64,000 nucleotides of DNA, taken from positions 25,657,021-25,721,020 of the forward strand of contig OX387602.1 of NCBI GenBank assembly GCA_947568835.1, given 5' to 3'. The position numbers were made by a program, and so were the translations under genes. Positions 15,606 to 38,814 of the stretch are shown piece after piece. How positions within the stretch are numbered: the stretch's first letter is position 1; every line of letters begins with the position of its first letter. The notes under the pieces were generated by a model. That model was not told where the DNA came from and searched no databases. It worked only from the letters and a program-made list of their open reading frames with translations. The DNA comes from Protonemura montana (lineage: Eukaryota; Arthropoda; Insecta; Plecoptera; Nemouridae).

Positions 15606-15930
15606 AGCCGAGTTTTTGTTCCTTACCATCGAAATAGATAACACTTGACCAAAAATGAAAAATTATTACAAGTCCAGAGTGTAGTACCAATTTCTGCCAA
15701 CAGGTGGCTCTGATGCAAGTTTTGTACTTAACTCTAGTTGCCATGTTCCTATATACTTGATGCTAGACTTAGGAGCTGCACACGGGGTATAGGTGGGGTT
15801 TGGGGTCGTGGGAACGGCCCGCAAAATTGGCGGGCGTGACTGGCGCGAAGCGCCAGGAGCGCCCGGCAATTTTGCTACTGTCTATAACATACGCCTAAAA
15901 AAAAAAGCAAAAGTGTGCAACGGCGTCGTG

Positions 15931-16012
15931 GAACATTCGTGATTCGAACCCGTGATCCAAACTATTGTCATGTAAACGATGAATTTGATGCCTTTAACCG
16001 CACGGGCAAACA
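15931..16012 (-). repeat. tRNA-derived segment, minus strand (copy 1)
   Basis: Read on the minus strand: GTGCGGTTAAAGGCATC (A-box-like), then GGATCACGGGTTCGAATCAC (B-box). The spacing suits a Leu/Ser-type tRNA ancestor. Confidence 0.55.
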
Positions 16013-16599
16013 TCCACGTGTTTTCACGTGAATTTTTTAGATATATTAGTCTCCAGACTCCAGTTGCCACTGGTGGATGTCGGATGTCGTATTCCAACGG
16101 TAAAAAATTCCTACGTCGAGTGGATTCGATACAGGTAGCGGTTACCAATGCCGCTACCGAAGCAGCGACTTTACAATTGTACCACGCAAACGGCCATACA
16201 ATGCGAAGAAAGATGAACCTATTTCAATTTCATGTTTGAAAACCTGGCCTACTGGGGAGGTATCTTACATTAACCACACCTTCTGTTTCGTTTGGTTTAG
16301 AACCGCATTCTCTTTAGCAGTCCGGGATGGAATCTTTTAAAATAATTGAAATATCATGGAGGATTATTATTCGTCCTCGCAAGTAAGAGCTTTAGACCAG
16401 GCCACCACAATTAGCAATGCCGAAGCCCTCAGCCACCCCAATATGTGGGCTTTCACCATTTGCCAGGATCGATCTCGTATGTGCAAGCATACGAACCCGA
16501 CATGTACAATGCCATTCGCGGCTCATTGCTCATGGCAGGGTTCCCATTTACTCTTATTTGTACAGATTCACCGAACACGCAGTCGTGTTAAGTCGCGCC

Positions 16600-17362: not shown

Positions 17363-17690
17363 TAGCCGAGTTTTTGTTCCTCACCATCGAAATAGATAAC
17401 ACTTGACCAAATATGAAAAATTATCACAAGTCCAGAGTGTAGTACCAATTTCTGCCAACAGGTGGCTCTGATGCTAGTTTTGTACTTAACTCTAGTTGCC
17501 ATGTTCCTATATACTTGATGCTAGACTTAGGAGCTGCACACGGGGTATAGGTGGGGTTTGGGGTCGTGGGAACGGCCCGCAAAATTGGCGGGCGTGACTG
17601 GCGCGAAGCGCCAGGAGCGCCCGGCAATTTTGCTACTGTCTGAATCATACGCCTAAAAAAAAAAGCAAAAGTGTGCAACTGCGTCGTGGA

Positions 17691-17770
17691 ACATTCGTGA
17701 TTCGAACCTGTGATCCAAACTATTGTCATGTGAACGATGAATTTGATGCCTTTAACCGCACGGGCAAACA
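17691..17770 (-). repeat. tRNA-derived segment, minus strand (copy 2)
   Basis: Counterpart of 15931-16012, with GTGCGGTTAAAGGCATC and the B-box CAGGTTCGAATCACG on the minus strand. Confidence 0.55.
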
Positions 17771-18484
17771 TCCACATGTTTTCACGTGCATTTTTGAAAT
17801 ATATAAGTCTCCAGACTCCAGTTGCCACTGGTGGATATTGTATTTCAACAGCCAAAAACTTCCTCCGTTGAGTTGGTTCGATCCAGGCAGCGGACACCAT
17901 TGACATCACTGTAGCATCGACAACACTGCTGTGCCACGCAGACGTCCATGCTATAAGGATGATTATGAACCTTTTTGAATTTCATGTTTGAAAACCCGAC
18001 TTACTAAGTCGCCATATGACATCGACCGCACTGTCTGATAAGTTCTTTTTAGAATATAATTCCCGCTAGCAGTCCGGGAATTTATATTTTTAATTTTTAA
18101 TCACCACCATTTACAACTTTTAATCGTCCTCACGAGCAAGAGCGACCACCACACATAACAGTGTAAGGGTACTAGGTCGCCACACTTAGCAGTGCAGAAG
18201 CTCTGACAACTAAAACAATGTGGGCTTTCACCATTTTCAACGAGCTAACGTGATAATTCAAGCTGTAGCGGCTGCCTGTAGGAACTCCAGTCTAAGCCCG
18301 CTGCACGATCACAGTGGCCCAATTCACTCTTATTTGTAAAGTTTCACCTAACACGCAGTCGTGTTAAGACGCACAGTGACCCCCAGCGCATTCTGTTGGA
18401 TATCAAATGTACTCGATCAATCAATGCCGGACTCCGGTCGGTAACCCGGATATTGATACGCCTGATGTTAAAAAATGGAATACT

Positions 18485-24465: not shown

Positions 24466-24677
24466 CTAGGTGTTGAGCCCGAGAACTTGATGGCAGATGA
24501 GGTGATTCGAGGCGACCGCTCCTTGCTGTTGCGGCTGCGACTCCATCGTCTGGCACATCTCGTTGGCGGGCGGCAGCGCGATGGGGATGTGGTAGTATTT
24601 ACATAGAGGTCTCGCACATTTCCCCTTGGCTGCGTCACGGCACACCATCACCTTCATGTCCGCAATCTCCACATGAC
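24466..24677 (-). CDS. mbl: Zinc finger 6 exon (second finger of the third muscleblind-type pair), stop included
   Basis: The exon follows cttttgacag on the minus strand and enters in phase 1, completing a Gly codon. It reads HVEIADMKVMVCRDAAKGKC, ARPLCKYYHIPIALPPANEM, a Gln-rich segment and GLNT, then TAG. CRDAAKGKC-ARPLC-KYYH is a C-x7-C-x4-C-x3-H finger, the spacing of muscleblind even-numbered fingers. The linker HVEIADMKVMVC aligns with the NVEVQNGKVTAC-type linker between muscleblind fingers 1 and 2. CCCH pairs of this type bind YGCY RNA. The exon is downstream of the ordinary mbl stop, so it is either an alternative mbl 3' end or a small separate gene. Confidence 0.8.
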
Positions 24678-24988
24678 CTGTCAAAAGCCAGAAGCTGCCA
24701 TTAAAACGGGGAACTAGCCTGGTACGTTGGCCACTGCACATCAAGCTGCACATCATTAAATGCTTCCGAAAAAATTCAAAACAACCATCAAAACTAAAAT
24801 ATTTGAAAAATATCTTTTATTCTGCAAGTCTGCAATCTTTTTAATGATAATCGAAAAGTCTAAGATAAAAACATAAAGATATTGCTAAGACCTATTCAGT
24901 TATACATATTTTGCGTTCAGTTTAGTGGTTTGAGTCATTTGTGTCGATTGGTCATGGTCCGAGTTAGCGAATTAGTGAGAAGACCTAC
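24678..24988 (-). other. Intron between zinc finger 5 and 6 exons
   Basis: A 311-nt AT-rich intron bounded by GTAGGT and TTGACAG. It splits the tandem pair in the inter-finger linker, in phase 1. The canonical second pair at about 35 kb is in a single exon, so the gene structure differs. Confidence 0.7.
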
Positions 24989-25073
24989 CTTCCTGAAGAT
25001 GAACATACTTGCAAGCTGGCCGGTAGCAGAGTTGCCGGTTAAAATCTTGGCACACCGGGAGGGTGTCCAGTAA
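24989..25073 (-). CDS. mbl: Zinc finger 5 exon (first finger of the third muscleblind-type pair)
   Basis: An 85-nt exon between tgtgtttcag and GAAG|GTAGGT on the minus strand. In phase 0 it reads LLDTLPVCQDFNRQLCYRPA, CKYVHLQE, then the first base of a Gly codon. CQDFNRQLC-YRPAC-KYVH is a complete C-x7-C-x4-C-x3-H finger. Muscleblind odd-numbered fingers normally have x6 between the second and third Cys; here it is x4, so this finger is atypical. It joins the finger 6 exon exactly in frame. It can accept in phase 0 from several mbl exons or from the candidate exon near 26.1 kb. Confidence 0.8.
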
Positions 25074-26043
25074 CTGAAACACAAAAGGTTGGTGTCAGGT
25101 TTTTGTAACGTACCGAACTTATTTCTTTCTCAACCTTTTTTCCAATACATTTTGTCTCGGTCTTGTATAAAAGCTCTCACAATATTCATGCGTTGAACTA
25201 GTCATGCGTTGACACATATGCACATCGTATTTATGTCACGTTCTATTGTCACTACTACTGGGTTCAGAAAAGACATAACAACAAATTAGTCTAAATGAAG
25301 TATTGAAGAAAAACGTAACAGTTTCACAAAACATGCCATATCTTTGGAGTGCATAAGAAACTTAGAAATTATAATTAGAAATGTTGCCAAAAATGTATAA
25401 TTACGGCCTTGAAGATTATTCTTGTGACCGGCGTTCTTCTGGCAAGAATAAGTACCGATTAAAGTAATTTTATAATCATTGAAAATTAGTTCATCCTAAC
25501 AAGTGGGTATTCAATATGATAATATAAACTATGCTATCTTTAAGTACAATCATGGCTCTGACACACTGGTTATGTTATAACTTGGAGGGTAATCTAAAAA
25601 TTCAACATCACTCAGTGTTGATTGAGCATACAATCAATTTTGACAATATATAATAAAAATTTAGAAACATCGCTGCATACATACAAAGTTTTGTCGGTAG
25701 GTTGCAACTGCATCGAGAGTATTAAAGCCAAAGAGAAAGAGAATGAAATTCTGCCACCGGTTAAAGAACCAATTAATATACCGATATGAAGCTAGCATTT
25801 TAAATATGTAGGTATTCTCATATGCCAATAGTTGATGTAAGCCATCAGGTAGGGAAAAACTGATTTAAAAAACTGCAATATTGTAAGCACCATTATTATT
25901 AAGTCCATAAACCATTGTCGATAGCAATTCCATGACAAACAATTAGAGTTGTTCGTTAGTAATTCTGAATGGCTAAAATGTAAATTAAGAAATAGATAAG
26001 GTCTAAAAAATAATAAAGCATGGTGTGCTGGTGGTTGTCTAAC
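25074..26043 (-). other. Intron
   Basis: AT-rich, no other feature recognised. Confidence 0.45.
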
Positions 26044-26099
26044 CTGTCCATGTTCATCAGTATAGACGACACAGTGAGCGTTTTGGGGCACGGCGGTGG
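26044..26099 (-). CDS. Candidate bridging exon before the third zinc finger pair
   Basis: A 56-nt segment between a possible acceptor (ggttggcag, weak pyrimidine tract) and a possible donor CAG|GTTAGA on the minus strand. It reads TAVPQNAHCVVYTDEHGQ after two bases that complete a codon. Entry phase 1 matches the internal GTGAGT donor in the mbl terminal exon near 30.16 kb, and exit phase 0 matches the finger 5 exon. I do not recognise the peptide. It lies in a GC- and CpG-rich island (about 26.05-26.28 kb) that could instead be a promoter or first exon of a separate gene. Support is phase compatibility only. Confidence 0.35.
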
Positions 26100-29000
26100 C
26101 TGCCAACCGGCCGGACCGCCATGCGACAAGCGATGAGGGCGGGCGTGCGTGCGTGCGTTCGAGCAGGGGAGGGGAAGCGGTCCCCGACACCACACGGCAG
26201 GCACCGTTCATTAAGCCCACCACACACAGGCACAACGTCAACAGCAGGCAGGTGGCGGCGGGAGTAACGTTGCGGACGGGTGTGTTATTATTATTATTAT
26301 GTTCGTGGACGGTGGTGTTGTTTTTTGGATGTGCAGTTTTTTTTTTTTTTTTTTGGATATGTTCATTATTCAGGCCAAGTGAAAGAAAGCATGAAAAAAA
26401 AGAAATTAAAGCAGAAAAAATTAATGATAACTCACATGCTTAATTAATTTGAGAAAAAAAAACCAGTAAAAGATAGTCTCACAAACCTGTAAAGTTTAGG
26501 CATTAAATGTCTACTACAAAATTAGTTGTACATACTATTTTGGGCTAGTTTTATTCTGCTGTCTATGATAACTGAATCATTTTCGACTGCCACAGTAAAA
26601 CTGGCCCGTATTAGTAGAACTGAAATAAAGCAAACCTCTACAAGTCAGTTGGTCATGCAAATTAGCATTGAACTGTGTGAACTTAAACTACTGAAGCCAG
26701 AGCAGAATCAACTGCATACCATATGCAAAAACTATAGTAAGCGTATTCAATTAACATTTTATAAGTCGAAAATAGGCAAAAGTAGTATTTAACGCAAAGG
26801 AAAAATGTAACTAATGGCTCAATTGCATATATGAGCCAATGCACCTTTGCAAATGAGCCGAGCAGATTATTTAGTGGCTGAATAGGTAATGATCCCTCAA
26901 TTAGCAAAGCTCTTGGAAACAGTGCCTAATGATTTACTGATCTCTGAATTGCTACTGCTTAATACTTTGTTGATCGATATGAATCCAGGACGTCTTGTGG
27001 TCTCAGAGACTAAAGAACCGTTCAGCAATATCATGTATCCGTATCCCTTATTGCTTGAGTGGTGTATGTGTGTGTGAAATAAATCTCAAAAAGTGAACTG
27101 CCAACCAAAGAAACACGAAGTAGGTTCTAGGTAGAAATAAGCATTTGGTTAAGCAGAGAGAATTTGTCTCGTAAGTCTTAACAACATTCCCTTACTTTTG
27201 TTATTATTTCACTGTACTTAACACCAATATATCTTTGGATGAGCGAGCACTCTCACGTACATACTGGTATGTGACAGCAAAGCTTGAAATTATGAAGCAC
27301 ATAAAAAAAGTAAAAAAAAAAATATATACCATGCTGCTCGTTCATCCAACAGTGTAAGCCCTCCAAAGGATTAAATATTAAACATCAACTGTAGAATGTA
27401 CAAGGATTGAGGTTAGGAATAAACTGTAGAAGCAACAAGCCCACTCGTCCGCGTCCCCGTCAATCATAGTTTGCAGAGCACACTAGTGGCAGAGGACATG
27501 TCTAGCAAATGACACTGCACACTCCGTGGTAGCATCTTCCAAAAAGCAGTCAAATGTGGCGGCAAATCCATTTACCTAGATCGAAGAAGCGTCCTACACT
27601 GATGAGGGTTTTGGGAAGGAGTATCAGGGTCGGCAGTGGTGGGGAAGGTTAGTCAGTTATCTATTGGAGAGAGTAAATACAGGATGGTGACAGTAAGGCC
27701 AAATGCATAGAAGGGGAAATAGCGGTAGAATGTGTTTGAACAAAACTGCAGCAGGATGTTGTATAAAGGAGAGAAGATTGAAAAAAGAAGCATTAATAAA
27801 ACAAATAATCATGCATTTCCAAGCATTATTATTACAAATACTGGCTGGTGTTTGTTGTTTGATTCACATACAAAGATCAGCAGGATTAGACAAGTAGTAC
27901 AATACACAATGAAATGTAATGGAATACAGTCAAAACTTTGTGTTCGGCCAAAGGCGTAATAAAGAAGCGTGTGACAAATCAGCCAGAATATTGTAGTCAA
28001 ACCCAAATCCTTTTAAAGACAGTAAACAGAAGGCACTTTCTTCATTTTAGAAGACAGCAATGCTGCACACTTCTGATCGTATTTGGGCCTATATAATGCT
28101 CATTTTTTTTCTTTATACTAACACATTTAAATGCAAATTACTTCTACATATTATTGTTAATTGTTAATGGAATATTATTTGATACTATGTTCTCATTTTG
28201 CCAGGTGCAGTTATGTGTGAATAACTGTTGAATTTGTCTGAGACCTTGCATAGCCCAAGGGAGCTGGCATAGACTCAGTCCAAGCAATTTTAAGAGCTCT
28301 TCTCTATAAACGATCGGGAAAACCGGCATCGGGGTACGCTTACGAGAGTTTCTATCTTATTTCTATATGAGATTTTCCCCAGTGCTGTCTGGTAAATGTA
28401 CGCTACTTAAAAGTGCTTTGTACCAGTCCCATTGGGGGTCACAGGTAATTCATCAAAATCTACTAACAGTATATTATAAAACCATGGTCTTTGAGACCTT
28501 CGAACATCAAGTTCCCATAGACTTTGCTACTTTTGCGGCTAAAATAGGAACACTTAAAACATACAATTTGTAGGCATTCTTAAAAAATACTCAAAACTAC
28601 TAAATATCATAAATTAAAACTATGAAGTAAAAACAATACACAGAAAGCAACATAGTGAGATAGTTTTTAAAATATACGTAACTTTGTGGCTGATTTGTGA
28701 GTGCTGTTTACTCAGTCTTTTGATTTTATGTCATGACGTGACCGATAAAAACAAGGAAGACGTAAAAGCTTTTTCTCATAATAGCAAATAGCAAATATAT
28801 ATAAAATATATATATTTTATATATCACAAGGTTCCTTTTTAACTAGTACGTATTACAATCTATTTTCAATAGGTTGGAATAAAAAAAATGGACTTAATTG
28901 CTAGTCTAAGCTTAAATGACCACGGATCTCAAATTTATGAAATCGTAATGGCAAATAAAATATGGAAACAAATAACCCACCATAATCTTAAAAAAAAATT

Positions 29001-29582: not shown

Positions 29583-30290
29583 TTATGTGGTTTTCATTTT
29601 CTTATACGGCTGCAGAGAAACAATGTTATTATTGTTGTTATTTGCGTTGGCAGCTGCTGCCAGAGGACTATACTGAGCAGCCATCATGTTATTCATGTTG
29701 AGTAGAGCGCTATTCAGCACAGGCTGCTGCTGAGCCATCATGTACTGTGGGTGCATAAACTGAGGCCGCAGAAACGAATAGGGCGAGACCAAGGTGGGCG
29801 GCGGTGCCCTATTGAATGCATACAGATTCGGGGGTGGGTAGTGGGGCGGCGGTGCCAGCGACAGACCCGCAAACCTCTGTGGAGGCGGCACCGCCATCGC
29901 CTGCTTGTTCAAAGCGACGCCTGTGTAATTCAATGCCATCAACGGATTTACGGCTGCGGCTTGGCGGATGGCCTTGGCATAGTTCTGCTGCGCCACCTCT
30001 TTGGCGATGGCGGCGGGATCGGGTGGGGCTGAGACGACAGCTTCGGGCTTGTCGGACTCGTCCAGCAGCTCGCTGACTGAGATCGTGCTAGGGGGCGGGT
30101 CGACCGTCCCGCCGGCTGCCGAGACGGTAACGGGGGGCGGGAGAGAGGGGGTCGTGTACTCACATGAGACGGGGACATACGGCTGCTGCAGCTGCATCAG
30201 CTGCTGGTACGTCGTGGCGTTGGGCTGGTAGACCGGCATGCCGGACTTGTCGGCGGCCGGCCGCTTGTATGGGACCATCCCGGGGAAGGC
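29583..30290 (-). CDS. mbl: muscleblind terminal coding exon (one- and two-TZF isoforms)
   Basis: The exon follows ctcgttgcag in phase 0 on the minus strand and encodes 235 residues to TAA. It starts AFPGMVPYKRPAADKSGMPV, continues YQPNATTYQQLMQLQQPYVP and VSCEY, the conserved insect muscleblind C-terminal region, then becomes Pro-, Ala- and Met-rich. Near the end come an Asn run and QPYKKMKTT, a basic end that could help nuclear import. Muscleblind proteins are nuclear and cytoplasmic RNA-binding regulators of alternative splicing, RNA localisation and stability. The C-terminal region lacks zinc fingers and is thought to mediate interactions. An internal GTGAGT offers an alternative donor after VS. 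Confidence 0.93.
   Translation of the reverse strand, partial: AFPGMVPYKRPAADKSGMPVYQPNATTYQQLMQLQQPYVPVSCEYTTPSLPPPVTVSAAGGTVDPPPSTISVSELLDESDKPEAVVSAPPDPAAIAKEVAQQNYAKAIRQAAAVNPLMALNYTGVALNKQAMAVPPPQRFAGLSLAPPPHYPPPNLYAFNRAPPPTLVSPYSFLRPQFMHPQYMMAQQQPVLNSALLNMNNMMAAQYSPLAAAANANNNNNNIVSLQPYKKMKTT
30158..30165 (-). promoter_or_regulatory. Internal alternative 5' splice site in the mbl terminal exon
   Basis: The minus strand reads TCAT|GTGAGTAC, where GTGAGT matches the donor consensus at all six intron positions. Use of it would truncate the exon after PVS in phase 1 and allow splicing to downstream exons, for example the candidate at 26.1 kb and the third zinc-finger pair. Muscleblind genes are known for 3'-end isoform diversity at about this point in the protein. 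Confidence 0.5.
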
Positions 30291-30555: not shown

Positions 30556-30597
30556 AAAGCTTTCGTAGTAGAACGACCCAACAGACTTCATCTCCAT
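30556..30597 (-). CDS. mbl: muscleblind 42-nt microexon
   Basis: A 14-codon exon, phase 0 at both ends, between ctccttttccag and TTT|GTAAGT on the minus strand. It reads MEMKSVGSFYYESF. Fly muscleblind has a nearly identical short segment (MDVKTVGSFYYDNF type) directly before the GMVPFKRP segment, and here the next exon begins AFPGMVPYKRP. Strong splice sites, position and similarity all agree. A multiple-of-three microexon can be included or skipped without shifting the frame, as expected for tissue-specific splicing. Confidence 0.93.
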
Positions 30598-32206
30598 CTG
30601 GAAAAGGAGAACGTCGACATTAGCGAGTTGCGCCCACACGTTCCGTTCAAGGTCATGCAAATCTTTAAGCTTAGTCCTGACTTTAATCTCAGAATACTGC
30701 AGCTAGTCAAACCACGACCGTCAGATTGGTCGAGGGCTGGCGTCCGAGTTGGATGACACACTGCGCTTGTGCGGTGATGGTTTGGAATGCGGGCAAGACA
30801 TATATTTTATCAAGAGTAATTAATTCCGGATACAGCATCGCGATTAGGCAAGTCCTGCCTGTAATTAGCCAGATGCTTTCTAGAAAATTTACATTGGTAA
30901 CATCAAAAGAACAGTACATTCCAGATCACATGGGTGGGATCCGCGCGGGAATTTCGCTTCTACGTGAAATAAGCACAGGTCAAGTCGTGGTCGAATGGCC
31001 AGTGATTGTCGGCTTCTTTCTTCGGTAGCAAAGACTACTGGCTGTGCGTAAGCGTAATAAATGGATAAAAGTATGATAACATTAACAGGCAGTCCGTTAC
31101 TCCAATCCATCACCGTAGGCACTCTGTATCCAACATTCTCTACCAGATTTACGCAAACTTTTACGCTAGGATCTGTGACCGAATATCACAAATCTGCATG
31201 CAAACCTTGATTTTAAACAACTGATCTATTCAAATTTGTCCAAAGTTAACCAAATCAAAATTAAAACTAAGGATTAAAACTAAGTTGTATTATTGTCTTA
31301 AAGTACTGTAAACAGGGGTGAGGGATTGGAGATCTTGAAGAGTATTGTTTTTGTTTAGTAGTATTCTAGAAGATAAGAGAATGTTGTGTAAAGGATAATT
31401 TTTGCTTGGTGACATTTAAACATTTATTACAGAATATGAAATACTTGTCCCTTGCATTGCCCATGCATTCCTCACTTTAATGTCAAAAAGCAAAGAAAGT
31501 ATTGTTGTATTTAGAAAAAGTTTATATATATATATATATTTGGTCTGTTTGAAACAAAAAGTAAGCACACAAGCAATATGCAGCCTTTGCACAACATGCT
31601 AACAACTCGTGAGACAAGAAGCATCTCAGACGAGTGGCCTGTGAAAGGCTCCAAGCTCGATAAGATATACGGTGCAAAGTTCTAATCAAGAGCATAAAGC
31701 ACGATCACATGACATTGAAGAAGCAAATATCAACTTTCACTCAAATAAAAAAAGAGAAAAATAAAGTAATAAACTACAACAGGTGTGGCCATTCAGCAGG
31801 TAACAATGAGATAAGAGACAAGTAATTTGAAACAATAAAGGGGTGAAATAGATTGCTTTAAAATTTTGGATTTCTTAGGTGCTTGACCAACTGGAAGGCT
31901 AAAATTTTTTACTGTCAACAGAAAGGTTATTACGTGCCATTTGAGTGCTGAATCGAAGACAGAAGATCCAAAGCCACTTCAGGCAGAAGTGGTTCAAGAA
32001 CGGGTTTTCCTTGGATTTTATAATTTTCCCAATACAAATTTAACCTTGGTGCATTTTAAGCCAAGTGCAGAGTCACTAGCAATTTCGAGAGTACCCGCAT
32101 CGAGGCGTCGTCTTTGGGGTCTGGTCATGTGAGCCTGCCTTAGACTCGTTTGGGGCCAGAACGGTAGAGGTGGTGACTAATAGTGACATGCAAAGCATTA
32201 TGGTAC
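30598..32206 (-). other. mbl intron
   Basis: AT-rich. A (TA)n tract lies near 31525-31540. No other exon supported. Confidence 0.6.
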
Positions 32207-32290
32207 CAGTAATAAGTCATCGCTAGGGTCGCGGGCACGTTTCTTCCCCACCTCCTGCGGGGCGCCGGCAACCGCAGCCATTGGCACTGG
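32207..32290 (-). CDS. mbl: muscleblind exon encoding GKKRARDPSDD
   Basis: A 28-codon segment, phase 0 at both ends, after the acceptor tctgctactaatag on the minus strand. It reads PVPMAAVAGAPQEVGKKRAR then DPSDDLLL. Joined to the next exon it gives DDLLL-MEMKSVGSFYYESF, which fits my knowledge of insect muscleblind. GKKRAR is a plausible nuclear localisation signal. The donor CTG|GTACCA is weak. If it is not used, the frame runs on for V-P and meets TAA (32198-32200), which would give a truncated isoform. The acceptor region is packed with YGCY motifs. Confidence 0.75.
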
Positions 32291-34932: not shown

Positions 34933-35151
34933 CGGGCTGGCCCTTGATTGTGCGGCCTTGATATGGGCTTGGAGGTGCAGTGGGGGGTGGAAATAGCGGC
35001 AAGGGTCTCGGTTGCATCGGCCCTTGACTGCGTCCATGCAGACCGTGACCGTTCCGTCTTCGTTGGCCGTCACGGCGGTGGCGGGGGGATGCGCAAAGCG
35101 GCACTCACTTTCCGAGCGTTTGCACGCGCCCCGTTGCCACTCGCGACATAC
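34933..35151 (-). CDS. mbl: muscleblind second tandem zinc finger exon (fingers 3 and 4)
   Basis: A 73-codon exon, phase 0 at both ends, between ctctgctatag and CCG|GTAGGC on the minus strand. It reads VCREWQRGACKRSESECRFA, HPPATAVTANEDGTVTVCMD, AVKGRCNRDPCRYFHPPLHL, QAHIKAAQSRASP. Finger 3 is C-x7-C-x6-C-x3-H and finger 4 is C-x7-C-x4-C-x3-H, followed by the HPPxHLQAxIKAAQ signature of vertebrate MBNL finger 4. It directly follows the linker exon ending RSDRLE, as in vertebrates. Drosophila mbl has been reported to encode proteins with one and two tandem zinc fingers, so this exon is probably alternatively spliced. Confidence 0.95.
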
Positions 35152-37228: not shown

Positions 37229-37411
37229 CTCGAGCCTGTCCGAGCGAGGCATCTTCTGCTGCGTGACGATGGTCTGGGGCACTACGCTGAGGGGGGAGCC
37301 CACCGAGGACGGGTCGGGCCCGAGGATGGCAGGCATCACGTGGCCGGGGGTGAAGTACGGGCTGAAGGTGCTGCCCACCTGGGGCATGCCCGTCAGGTAC
37401 GGATTGGTCGC
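37229..37411 (-). CDS. mbl: muscleblind linker exon (ATNPYLTG … RSDRLE)
   Basis: A 61-codon exon, phase 0 at both ends, between catagcag and GAG|GTAAGA on the minus strand. It starts ATNPYLTGMPQVGSTFSPYF, contains MPAILGPDPSSVGSPL and VVPQTIVTQQKMP, and ends RSDRLE. ATNPYL at the start and RxDRLE at the end are the hallmarks of the linker between the first and second tandem zinc fingers in muscleblind. It is Pro/Ser/Val-rich and without fingers. In the one-TZF form it is followed by the C-terminal exons directly; in the two-TZF form by the exon near 35 kb. Confidence 0.96.
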
Positions 37412-38640
37412 CTGCTATGAGTGGACAAACAACACCAGCCATTAGCACGTTGCGGGCAAACCTGGTGACTGGGCGAGCAGGGAGAATTGACACGCTAGAC
37501 TGTTACAAGGAGGTTGTTTGTGGGACAAAGCGTTTTATAGGTTTCCTAGTCACTAATTACAGAAAAACTTGAATACAAAAATGATATGTTTAAGGGAGGA
37601 GCAAGTCTGGCGTGTCAGATAAAATTTGGGCTCTAATATAAGGAAGGTGAAGAGAAAGCACAGCAATAAACACATTATCAACTCGTTTCAGACCAGAGAT
37701 TTCCTGAAAACAACAGATTAATGCAAAAAGAAGTGACAAGAGAATGTGATCTGAAATTAAATCATTGAGAATTACCAGCTGAATAGAAAAAGTAAAAACT
37801 TGTTTTGAACATTCTATATTTTGTCTGAACTGTTTAAATTATCAAATTAAGAAAAAACTGAACGAAAAATTGTCAAGTCACAATATGTATGCACTAACAA
37901 TAAATTAGGTAATGATTGCATCCCAGACAGTTGATAAAGTGGTTACTGATTATCAAGGTTTAGACTTGTGATAAAGGTAGGTAAAGGTGGGTTGGGACTA
38001 GAAAGCAGACAGTGATAGATAGATAGTGTGTACAGAAGCCAAACCAAGTTACCATGAAAGGCTGCCCAAGCATCAGTGGACTAGCAAACGGCACCTTACC
38101 GCCAACCTCAAACAATAAAACGAAAAAACACAGGATAAAAATATGAGCGTTCTAAACACCACTCGAGATGCATTGAAAATTAGTGTATGTGGTAATTAAA
38201 CAACAGTCGCAAGGTACAAAAACAACACACATCGCACAACAGTTAGGTGGTTCTCCTTGGTTGGAAAACGATGCTTTTTTAAACCTTAAGAGCAATTTTT
38301 CTAGCAAGGAAATCATATCATGCAATGTGAATAAACTGTACAAGCAAACCAACACCACTGACTAGGAAAATTGGTTCAAAAACAAGTCTTCATGCGCTAA
38401 CAAATAAGGAACTAGGCTGCTAGAATTTAATATTTCACACATACAGGAATTAAGAGAATCAAGAATGCATTGCAACTAATGTAGACAGGATAGCAATAAT
38501 TAAAAAAATCATAGATTTTCCCACTAAGTAAATCAGTTTCCTGGTAGGTATATTTACAAAACTCGTTAAAAATCCCGCTCAGCGAAAGCAAAGCCGGGTG
38601 GCCAGCATTCGGCCGGTCGCCGTTCCGCAGACCAACTCAC
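37412..38640 (-). other. mbl intron
   Basis: AT-rich intron; no additional exon seen. Confidence 0.65.
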
Positions 38641-38814
38641 CACTGTGGGGACCTGTCCAGGGATAAGTGCCTGCCCAGGAGGGGTCAGGCCCATTTGTTG
38701 CATCAGCGCATTTTTCAAGGCTAAGTGATTCCGGCCGTTGATCAACAACTGGTCTTTGAGGTGCTGCGGAGGATGGAAGTACTTGCAGGGAGGCTTCTCG
38801 CGGTTACATCGGCC
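38641..38814 (-). CDS. mbl: muscleblind zinc finger 2 exon
   Basis: A 58-codon exon, phase 0 at both ends, between tcggttccag and GTG|GTGAGT on the minus strand. It reads [74 protein letters not shown] supplies the last two Cys and the His of finger 2. Its first Cys, and all of finger 1, are on the preceding exon, which I did not find in the window. The match to fly muscleblind is close along the whole exon. This finger pairs with finger 1 in the RNA-binding TZF. Confidence 0.97.

Follow-up and report, generated by a model that had tools for sequence, protein, structure and literature searches.

Muscleblind, a splicing regulator, is sequestered in myotonic dystrophy, for which flies serve as a principal model. 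The muscleblind (mbl) locus of the stonefly Protonemura montana raises the question of whether two short exons lying beyond the usual mbl stop codon encode a third muscleblind-type tandem CCCH zinc finger pair and, if so, whether they serve mbl as an alternative end or belong to a compact two-finger paralogue immediately downstream. We analysed a 64,000-nucleotide stretch of genomic DNA (C1:25657021-25721020, hereafter the window) from a 258.5 Mb genome of 34 contigs. Positions are those of the window unless the contig is named, and the two exons are called A and B in the order of translation.

Results

Two spliced exons encode an intact pair of CCCH fingers

Spliced translation confirmed the coordinates, strand, splice sites and peptides given for the two exons in the original prediction (Table 1). 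Exons A and B join in phase 1 to give 297 nt, corresponding to 98 residues and a stop, and contain the fingers CQDFNRQLCYRPACKYVH and CRDAAKGKCARPLCKYYH, each spaced C-x7-C-x4-C-x3-H and separated from one another by 15 residues. Exon A is bordered by the acceptor tgtttcag/TTACTG and the donor AGGAAG/gtaggt, and exon B begins at the acceptor ttttgacag/GTCATG. With a rough, hand-made donor matrix (generic, approximate frequencies), the exon A donor ranks third among the 3678 minus-strand GTs of the window, and a crude pyrimidine score places the acceptors of exons A and B at the 91.9 and 97.0 percentiles of AGs, respectively. The exons have a GC content of 0.56 and a GC3 of 0.69, the latter inside the 0.56-0.93 span of the mbl exons; in three measured flanking stretches the GC content is 0.30-0.36.

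A mobile element or a recent duplication was set aside as the source of these exons: a nucleotide search found the 608-base stretch 24466..25073 at a single place in the genome, and the direct repeats across 22-31 kb are short and weak (25-32 nt). Searches with the prokaryote library NCBIfam and, for the window at gathering score, with Rfam returned no match. In a collection of genome contigs, 22 pattern matches led to two loci, both in bacterial records and both aligning only within residues 1-21 of the open frame; as these residues fall in the intron, the two matches are attributed to chance. Viral contigs yielded one pattern match and no relative.

The third pair follows the canonical mbl exons in the same orientation

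Mapping and translation bore out the claim that this pair lies downstream of the usual stop, in mbl orientation and third in locus order. The exons run from finger 1 of the first pair through finger 2, the linker, the second pair, a 42-nt exon and the last coding exon to the third pair, which sits 4.5 kb past the mbl stop. Two of the mbl exons reach 89% and 84% identity to a Drosophila Mbl sequence. We take the 42-nt exon to resemble the fly MblC-specific exon and the last coding exon to be MblC-type; the latter had no match in Pfam or PDB. The canonical first pair had been counted as already accounted for, which is correct for its finger-2 exon in the window, but its first finger lies outside the window, some 60 kb upstream. 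A large intron after finger 1 is likewise described, in the sections consulted of Irion (2012, PMC3315501), for the insects named there.

Table 1. Position and properties of the exons and candidate exons at the mbl locus, in the order of translation
Feature	Position	Strand	Properties and basis
mbl finger-1 exon (first pair)	C1:25755406-25755594		beyond the window; ~60 kb intron before the finger-2 exon
mbl finger 2 of first pair	38641..38814	-	phase 0/0; tblastn, translation
mbl linker exon, ending MPRSDRLE	37229..37411	-	phase 0/0; tblastn, translation
mbl second finger pair, one exon	34933..35151	-	phase 0/0; tblastn E 7e-29
possible further alternative last exon, PVPMAAVAGAPQEVGKKRARDPSDDLLLVP + stop	32198..32290	-	read by eye, translated
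42-nt exon, MEMKSVGSFYYESF	30556..30597	-	phase 0/0; translation
last coding exon, with the 'normal' mbl stop; AFPGMVPYKRPAADKSG...KKMKTT + stop	29583..30290	-	translation
only candidate start exon between mbl stop and exon A	26044..26211	-	5 codons or more; donor in phase 0, 5.5 bits or more
exon A, third pair	24989..25073	-	85 nt; LLDTLPVCQDFNRQLCYRPACKYVHLQE + 1 nt; acceptor phase 0, donor phase 1
intron, third pair	24678..24988	-	311 nt, gtaggt...tgacag, 36% GC; within the inter-finger linker
exon B, third pair	24466..24677	-	212 nt including stop TAG; (G)HVEIADMKVMVCRDAAKGKCARPLCKYYHIPIALPP...HQVLGLNT

A whole-genome search with the Pfam family zf-CCCH_10, in which 19 candidates were scored and at least four matches were listed at E up to 0.001, placed all four of the matches listed, each above the curated cut-off, in the mbl locus, namely at finger 1, finger 2, the second pair and exon B (exon A alone is absent). 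By this search, the muscleblind-type locus is single among the genome matches listed.

The locus contains further candidate exons. The stretch ending in PVPMAAVAGAPQEVGKKRARDPSDDLLLVP follows an AG in phase 0 and carries a basic KKRARD run; it had no Pfam match and is perhaps another alternative last mbl exon with a nuclear signal. Between an AG and a GT at 38106-38053 on the minus strand lies a 54-nt open stretch, VGGKVPFASPLMLGQPFM, of phase 0/0 and with a weak acceptor (49th percentile), perhaps an mbl cassette exon. Elsewhere in the window, exons of a convergent gene that resembles an LRCH gene lie at 1324-2496 on the plus strand; parts of two of them, joined by eye, give a weak calponin homology domain match below the cut-off (E 1.5e-4). 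The minus-strand open frames 15882-16223 and 17424-17981 have long, nearly identical peptide stretches in common (e.g., ARAVKGIKFIV[YH]MTIVWITGSNHECSTT) and are probably copies of an interspersed repeat.

Sequence comparisons assign the third pair to the muscleblind family

A phmmer search of the PDB with the joined frame returned seven sequences at E up to 10. The top six (E 3.7e-10 to 5.5e-9) comprise five MBNL1/MBNL2 entries and 2e5s, which has a clone-type name and an aligned sequence of the same kind, and the seventh is Nab2 at E 7.4. Pfam zf-CCCH_10 matches the joined frame at E 4.1e-14, above the curated cut-off, covering two stretches of which neither exceeds E 0.1, and matches the canonical pairs of the locus more strongly (8.5e-27 and 6e-24). 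As the same profile also recognises ZC3H10 fingers (1.2e-11 and 1.3e-15), it is indecisive by itself as to the family. In tblastn, human MBNL1 matched exon B in the window at E 1.2e-5 and exon A at E 0.010, so the case for exon A rests chiefly on its join to exon B.

The fingers could instead belong to another CCCH family. ZC3H10 came into consideration since its middle finger, in the human sequence, has the x7/x4/x3 spacing of the third pair together with a CSRPNC core, and a 26-residue match between the third pair and this protein reaches 46% identity. The other ZC3H10 fingers, both in human ZC3H10 and in the genome's own gene on contig C2, are spaced x5, unlike the third pair. In blastp comparisons, the third pair scored 47-52 bits against four muscleblind pairs (52.4 for its own first pair and for the human first pair, 48.5 for the human second pair and 47.4 for its own second pair) versus 32-38 bits against three ZC3H10 segments (37.7, 34.3 and 32.3). 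Scores near 50 bits also occur outside muscleblind and reflect relatedness between CCCH pairs in general, not family, given that the ZC3H10-like fingers of this genome reach 52.0 bits to both second muscleblind pairs. In an eight-row tree, ZC3H10 was split from muscleblind with support 99/83, the third pair falling on the muscleblind side, with long branches in the tree. Below E 7, the solved structures matched are exclusively MBNL-type pairs. Similarity to the muscleblind pairs exceeds that to other CCCH families by phmmer, blastp and the tree, and we regard membership of another CCCH family as hardly credible. A grouping with such fingers had been named at the outset as evidence to the contrary; the tree parts the two, and the ZC3H10-like gene lies on a different contig from the mbl locus. 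By these comparisons (phmmer against PDB, tblastn, the genome search with zf-CCCH_10 and the tree), the third pair is a muscleblind-type tandem CCCH pair, as predicted.

The position of the third pair within the muscleblind family is less sure, because three of the five inner branches of the tree are open and two rows, including the third pair, are very long. In the tree, the third pair joins the first pairs (88/96), on a branch of 6.4. The first pair is also its best match, with 43% identity for the mbl pair and 41% for human MBNL1 ZF1-2, and shares its CxRP core, but the first finger of the third pair is two residues shorter. The second pair (the mbl exon, or human MBNL1 ZF3-4) resembles it in the tandem arrangement and in a second finger of the form KG[RK]C-x4-C-[KR]-Y-x-H, at 39% (own) and 37.5% (human) identity, but is spaced x6/x4. 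Moreover, the intron of the third pair lies in the linker in phase 1, whereas the first pair is split inside finger 2 in phase 0 and the second pair is unsplit; as its intron position matches neither, the third pair is no simple copy of the first or the second.

Zinc ligands and stacking aromatics are retained in a pair with a shortened first finger

All eight Cys/His ligands common to each of the four canonical pairs are present in the third pair, compared to agreement at only 13-17 of 45-46 aligned non-ligand residues. By a crude count that assumes independent sites, the chance of keeping all eight at background conservation is ~4e-5 to 4e-4. Both fingers also have a tyrosine two residues past the third cysteine (CKYVH and CKYYH). 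According to the portions of PMC3880588 consulted, the equivalent MBNL1 aromatics are F36, Y68, F202 and Y236, all four of which were mutated to disrupt binding, and F202 and Y236 intercalate in a GC step. As ligands and stacking aromatics are kept, binding of zinc and of GC-containing RNA would be expected, and the pair is likely to bind RNA in broadly the way that muscleblind fingers do.

The third pair is spaced x4/x4, as predicted, so that its first finger has x4 in place of the canonical x6. The canonical spacing against which it had been set, x6/x4, holds for the second pair of the locus, but the first pair is x6/x6 (TRPDTE, NREKPP); this agrees with the two extra residues reported for the second finger of the first insect pair in the sections consulted of PMC3315501. 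On spacing, the x4 first finger bars the label of a canonical pair, not kinship with the family. RNA specificity may be altered, as the first finger is shorter by two residues.

These features also bear on the explanation that the exons are a relic, formerly used by mbl, which lost transcription and survived by chance. The strong divergence of the third pair in blastp would fit such a history, but the open frame, the top-ranked donor and two plausible acceptors, together with the retention of all eight ligands and both stacking aromatics against the odds estimated above, speak against it, and we consider a relic very improbable.

The third pair is probably an alternative 3' end of mbl

We propose, with a probability of about 0.72, that exons A and B are alternative 3'-terminal coding exons of mbl. 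The MblC-type last exon (30290-29583) would be skipped and an upstream phase-0 mbl donor would splice to 25073. In the resulting protein, the MblC tail would be replaced by the diverged pair plus a short tail, placed after the first pair alone or after the first and second pairs. A shorter first finger and a missing MblC tail would then alter which targets are chosen, how far apart bound sites lie and, possibly, where in the cell the protein is found. We infer the splicing to mbl, the RNA binding, the altered specificity and the altered location from sequence features.

Upstream of exon A, the open frame meets a stop at the eighth codon with no ATG in between, so exon A needs an upstream exon for its start. 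All six upstream mbl donors examined (those of the finger-1 exon and at 38641, 38053, 37229, 34933 and 30556, the one at 38053 belonging to the provisional exon with the weak acceptor) are in phase 0 and fit the phase-0 acceptor of exon A, an agreement in phase that by itself would arise by chance about one time in three. Further points in favour are the GC and GC3 values given above, the siting of all listed zf-CCCH_10 matches at mbl, the place of the pair inside muscleblind in the tree and the finding of one weak candidate start exon in the interval before exon A. Counting against the isoform are an AATAAA at 26555, in the interval separating exon A from the mbl stop, a GC- and CpG-rich patch at 25.9-26.2 kb that could be a promoter, the unmatched intron position, the absence of exon A from the zf-CCCH_10 matches and the distance of such signals as AATAAA past exon B, where an ATTAAA first occurs ~1 kb on (23482) and an AATAAA 2.2 kb on.

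The signal at 26555 would equally part the end of mbl from a compact paralogue that has two fingers and a promoter of its own, arising as a tandem duplicate of the mbl fingers just downstream in the same orientation. Such a freed paralogue would be expected to diverge, and the third pair is far more diverged from the human counterparts than the first and second pairs are. A start could be supplied by the candidate exon at 26211..26044, which has a phase-0 donor of 6.5 bits and overlaps a GC- and CpG-rich patch. Our search covered ATG-bearing exons at the stated donor thresholds, and its single candidate is no excess over the 3, 1 and 4 counted in three comparison stretches of about the same size. 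At a threshold of 7 bits with no length limit, the sole start candidate was an ATG alone at 28983. The patch itself (25901-26200; GC 0.50, CpG o/e 1.1) lies inside a 215-codon minus-strand open frame, 25792-26439, which surrounds the candidate exon and had no Pfam match; it could be a promoter, an enhancer or an unknown exon. We consider a separate paralogue unlikely, and between the two readings the sequence favours the mbl isoform.

A bolder form of the isoform proposal is a six-finger muscleblind in which the first, second and third pairs occur together, the x4/x4 pair would add specificity and the MblC tail would be replaced, giving a functionally separate isoform. We regard this extension as doubtful.

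Discussion

A divergent finger pair at mbl has a precedent, so the third pair is not new in kind. In the sections consulted of PMC3315501, Drosophila and other insects are described as having a conserved second-pair exon, besides which the Drosophila transcript RF (MblF) has a divergent second pair. On this account the fly locus seems to have a divergent pair in addition to the first pair and the conserved second one, like the locus described here. The statement that muscleblind proteins have one or two tandem zinc fingers agrees with the same source when taken per protein, whereas a further pair at the locus is already on record there. The MblF pair is given at 32% identity and 49% similarity, apparently against human MBNL1, and the third pair, with values of similar magnitude, is 37.5% identical and 54.7% similar to the human MBNL1 second pair (blastp). 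On these printed percentages, which are the only values compared, and on its presence at the mbl locus besides the conserved first and second pairs, the third pair is probably the counterpart (orthologue) of the divergent MblF pair.

The literature touches on this module sparsely. The parts consulted of PMC5041496 mention four-finger fly homologs, citing PMC3315501, and those of a 2026 review (PMC13044900) give one pair for invertebrates and name isoforms MblA-G. Among the matches listed in searches on mbl isoforms, finger counts and evolution, MblF is named only in PMC3315501, and six peptide strings of the third pair (three exact, three guessed variants) had no match in the literature.

Taken from its sequence, the third pair is real, intact and muscleblind-type, and most likely an alternative end of mbl. 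If orthology to MblF alone proves true, the advance is modest, extending a neglected isoform to another insect. The presence of an intact extra pair in another insect suggests that insect mbl may have retained the MblF-type module, and this little-noted module may have RNA targets of its own.
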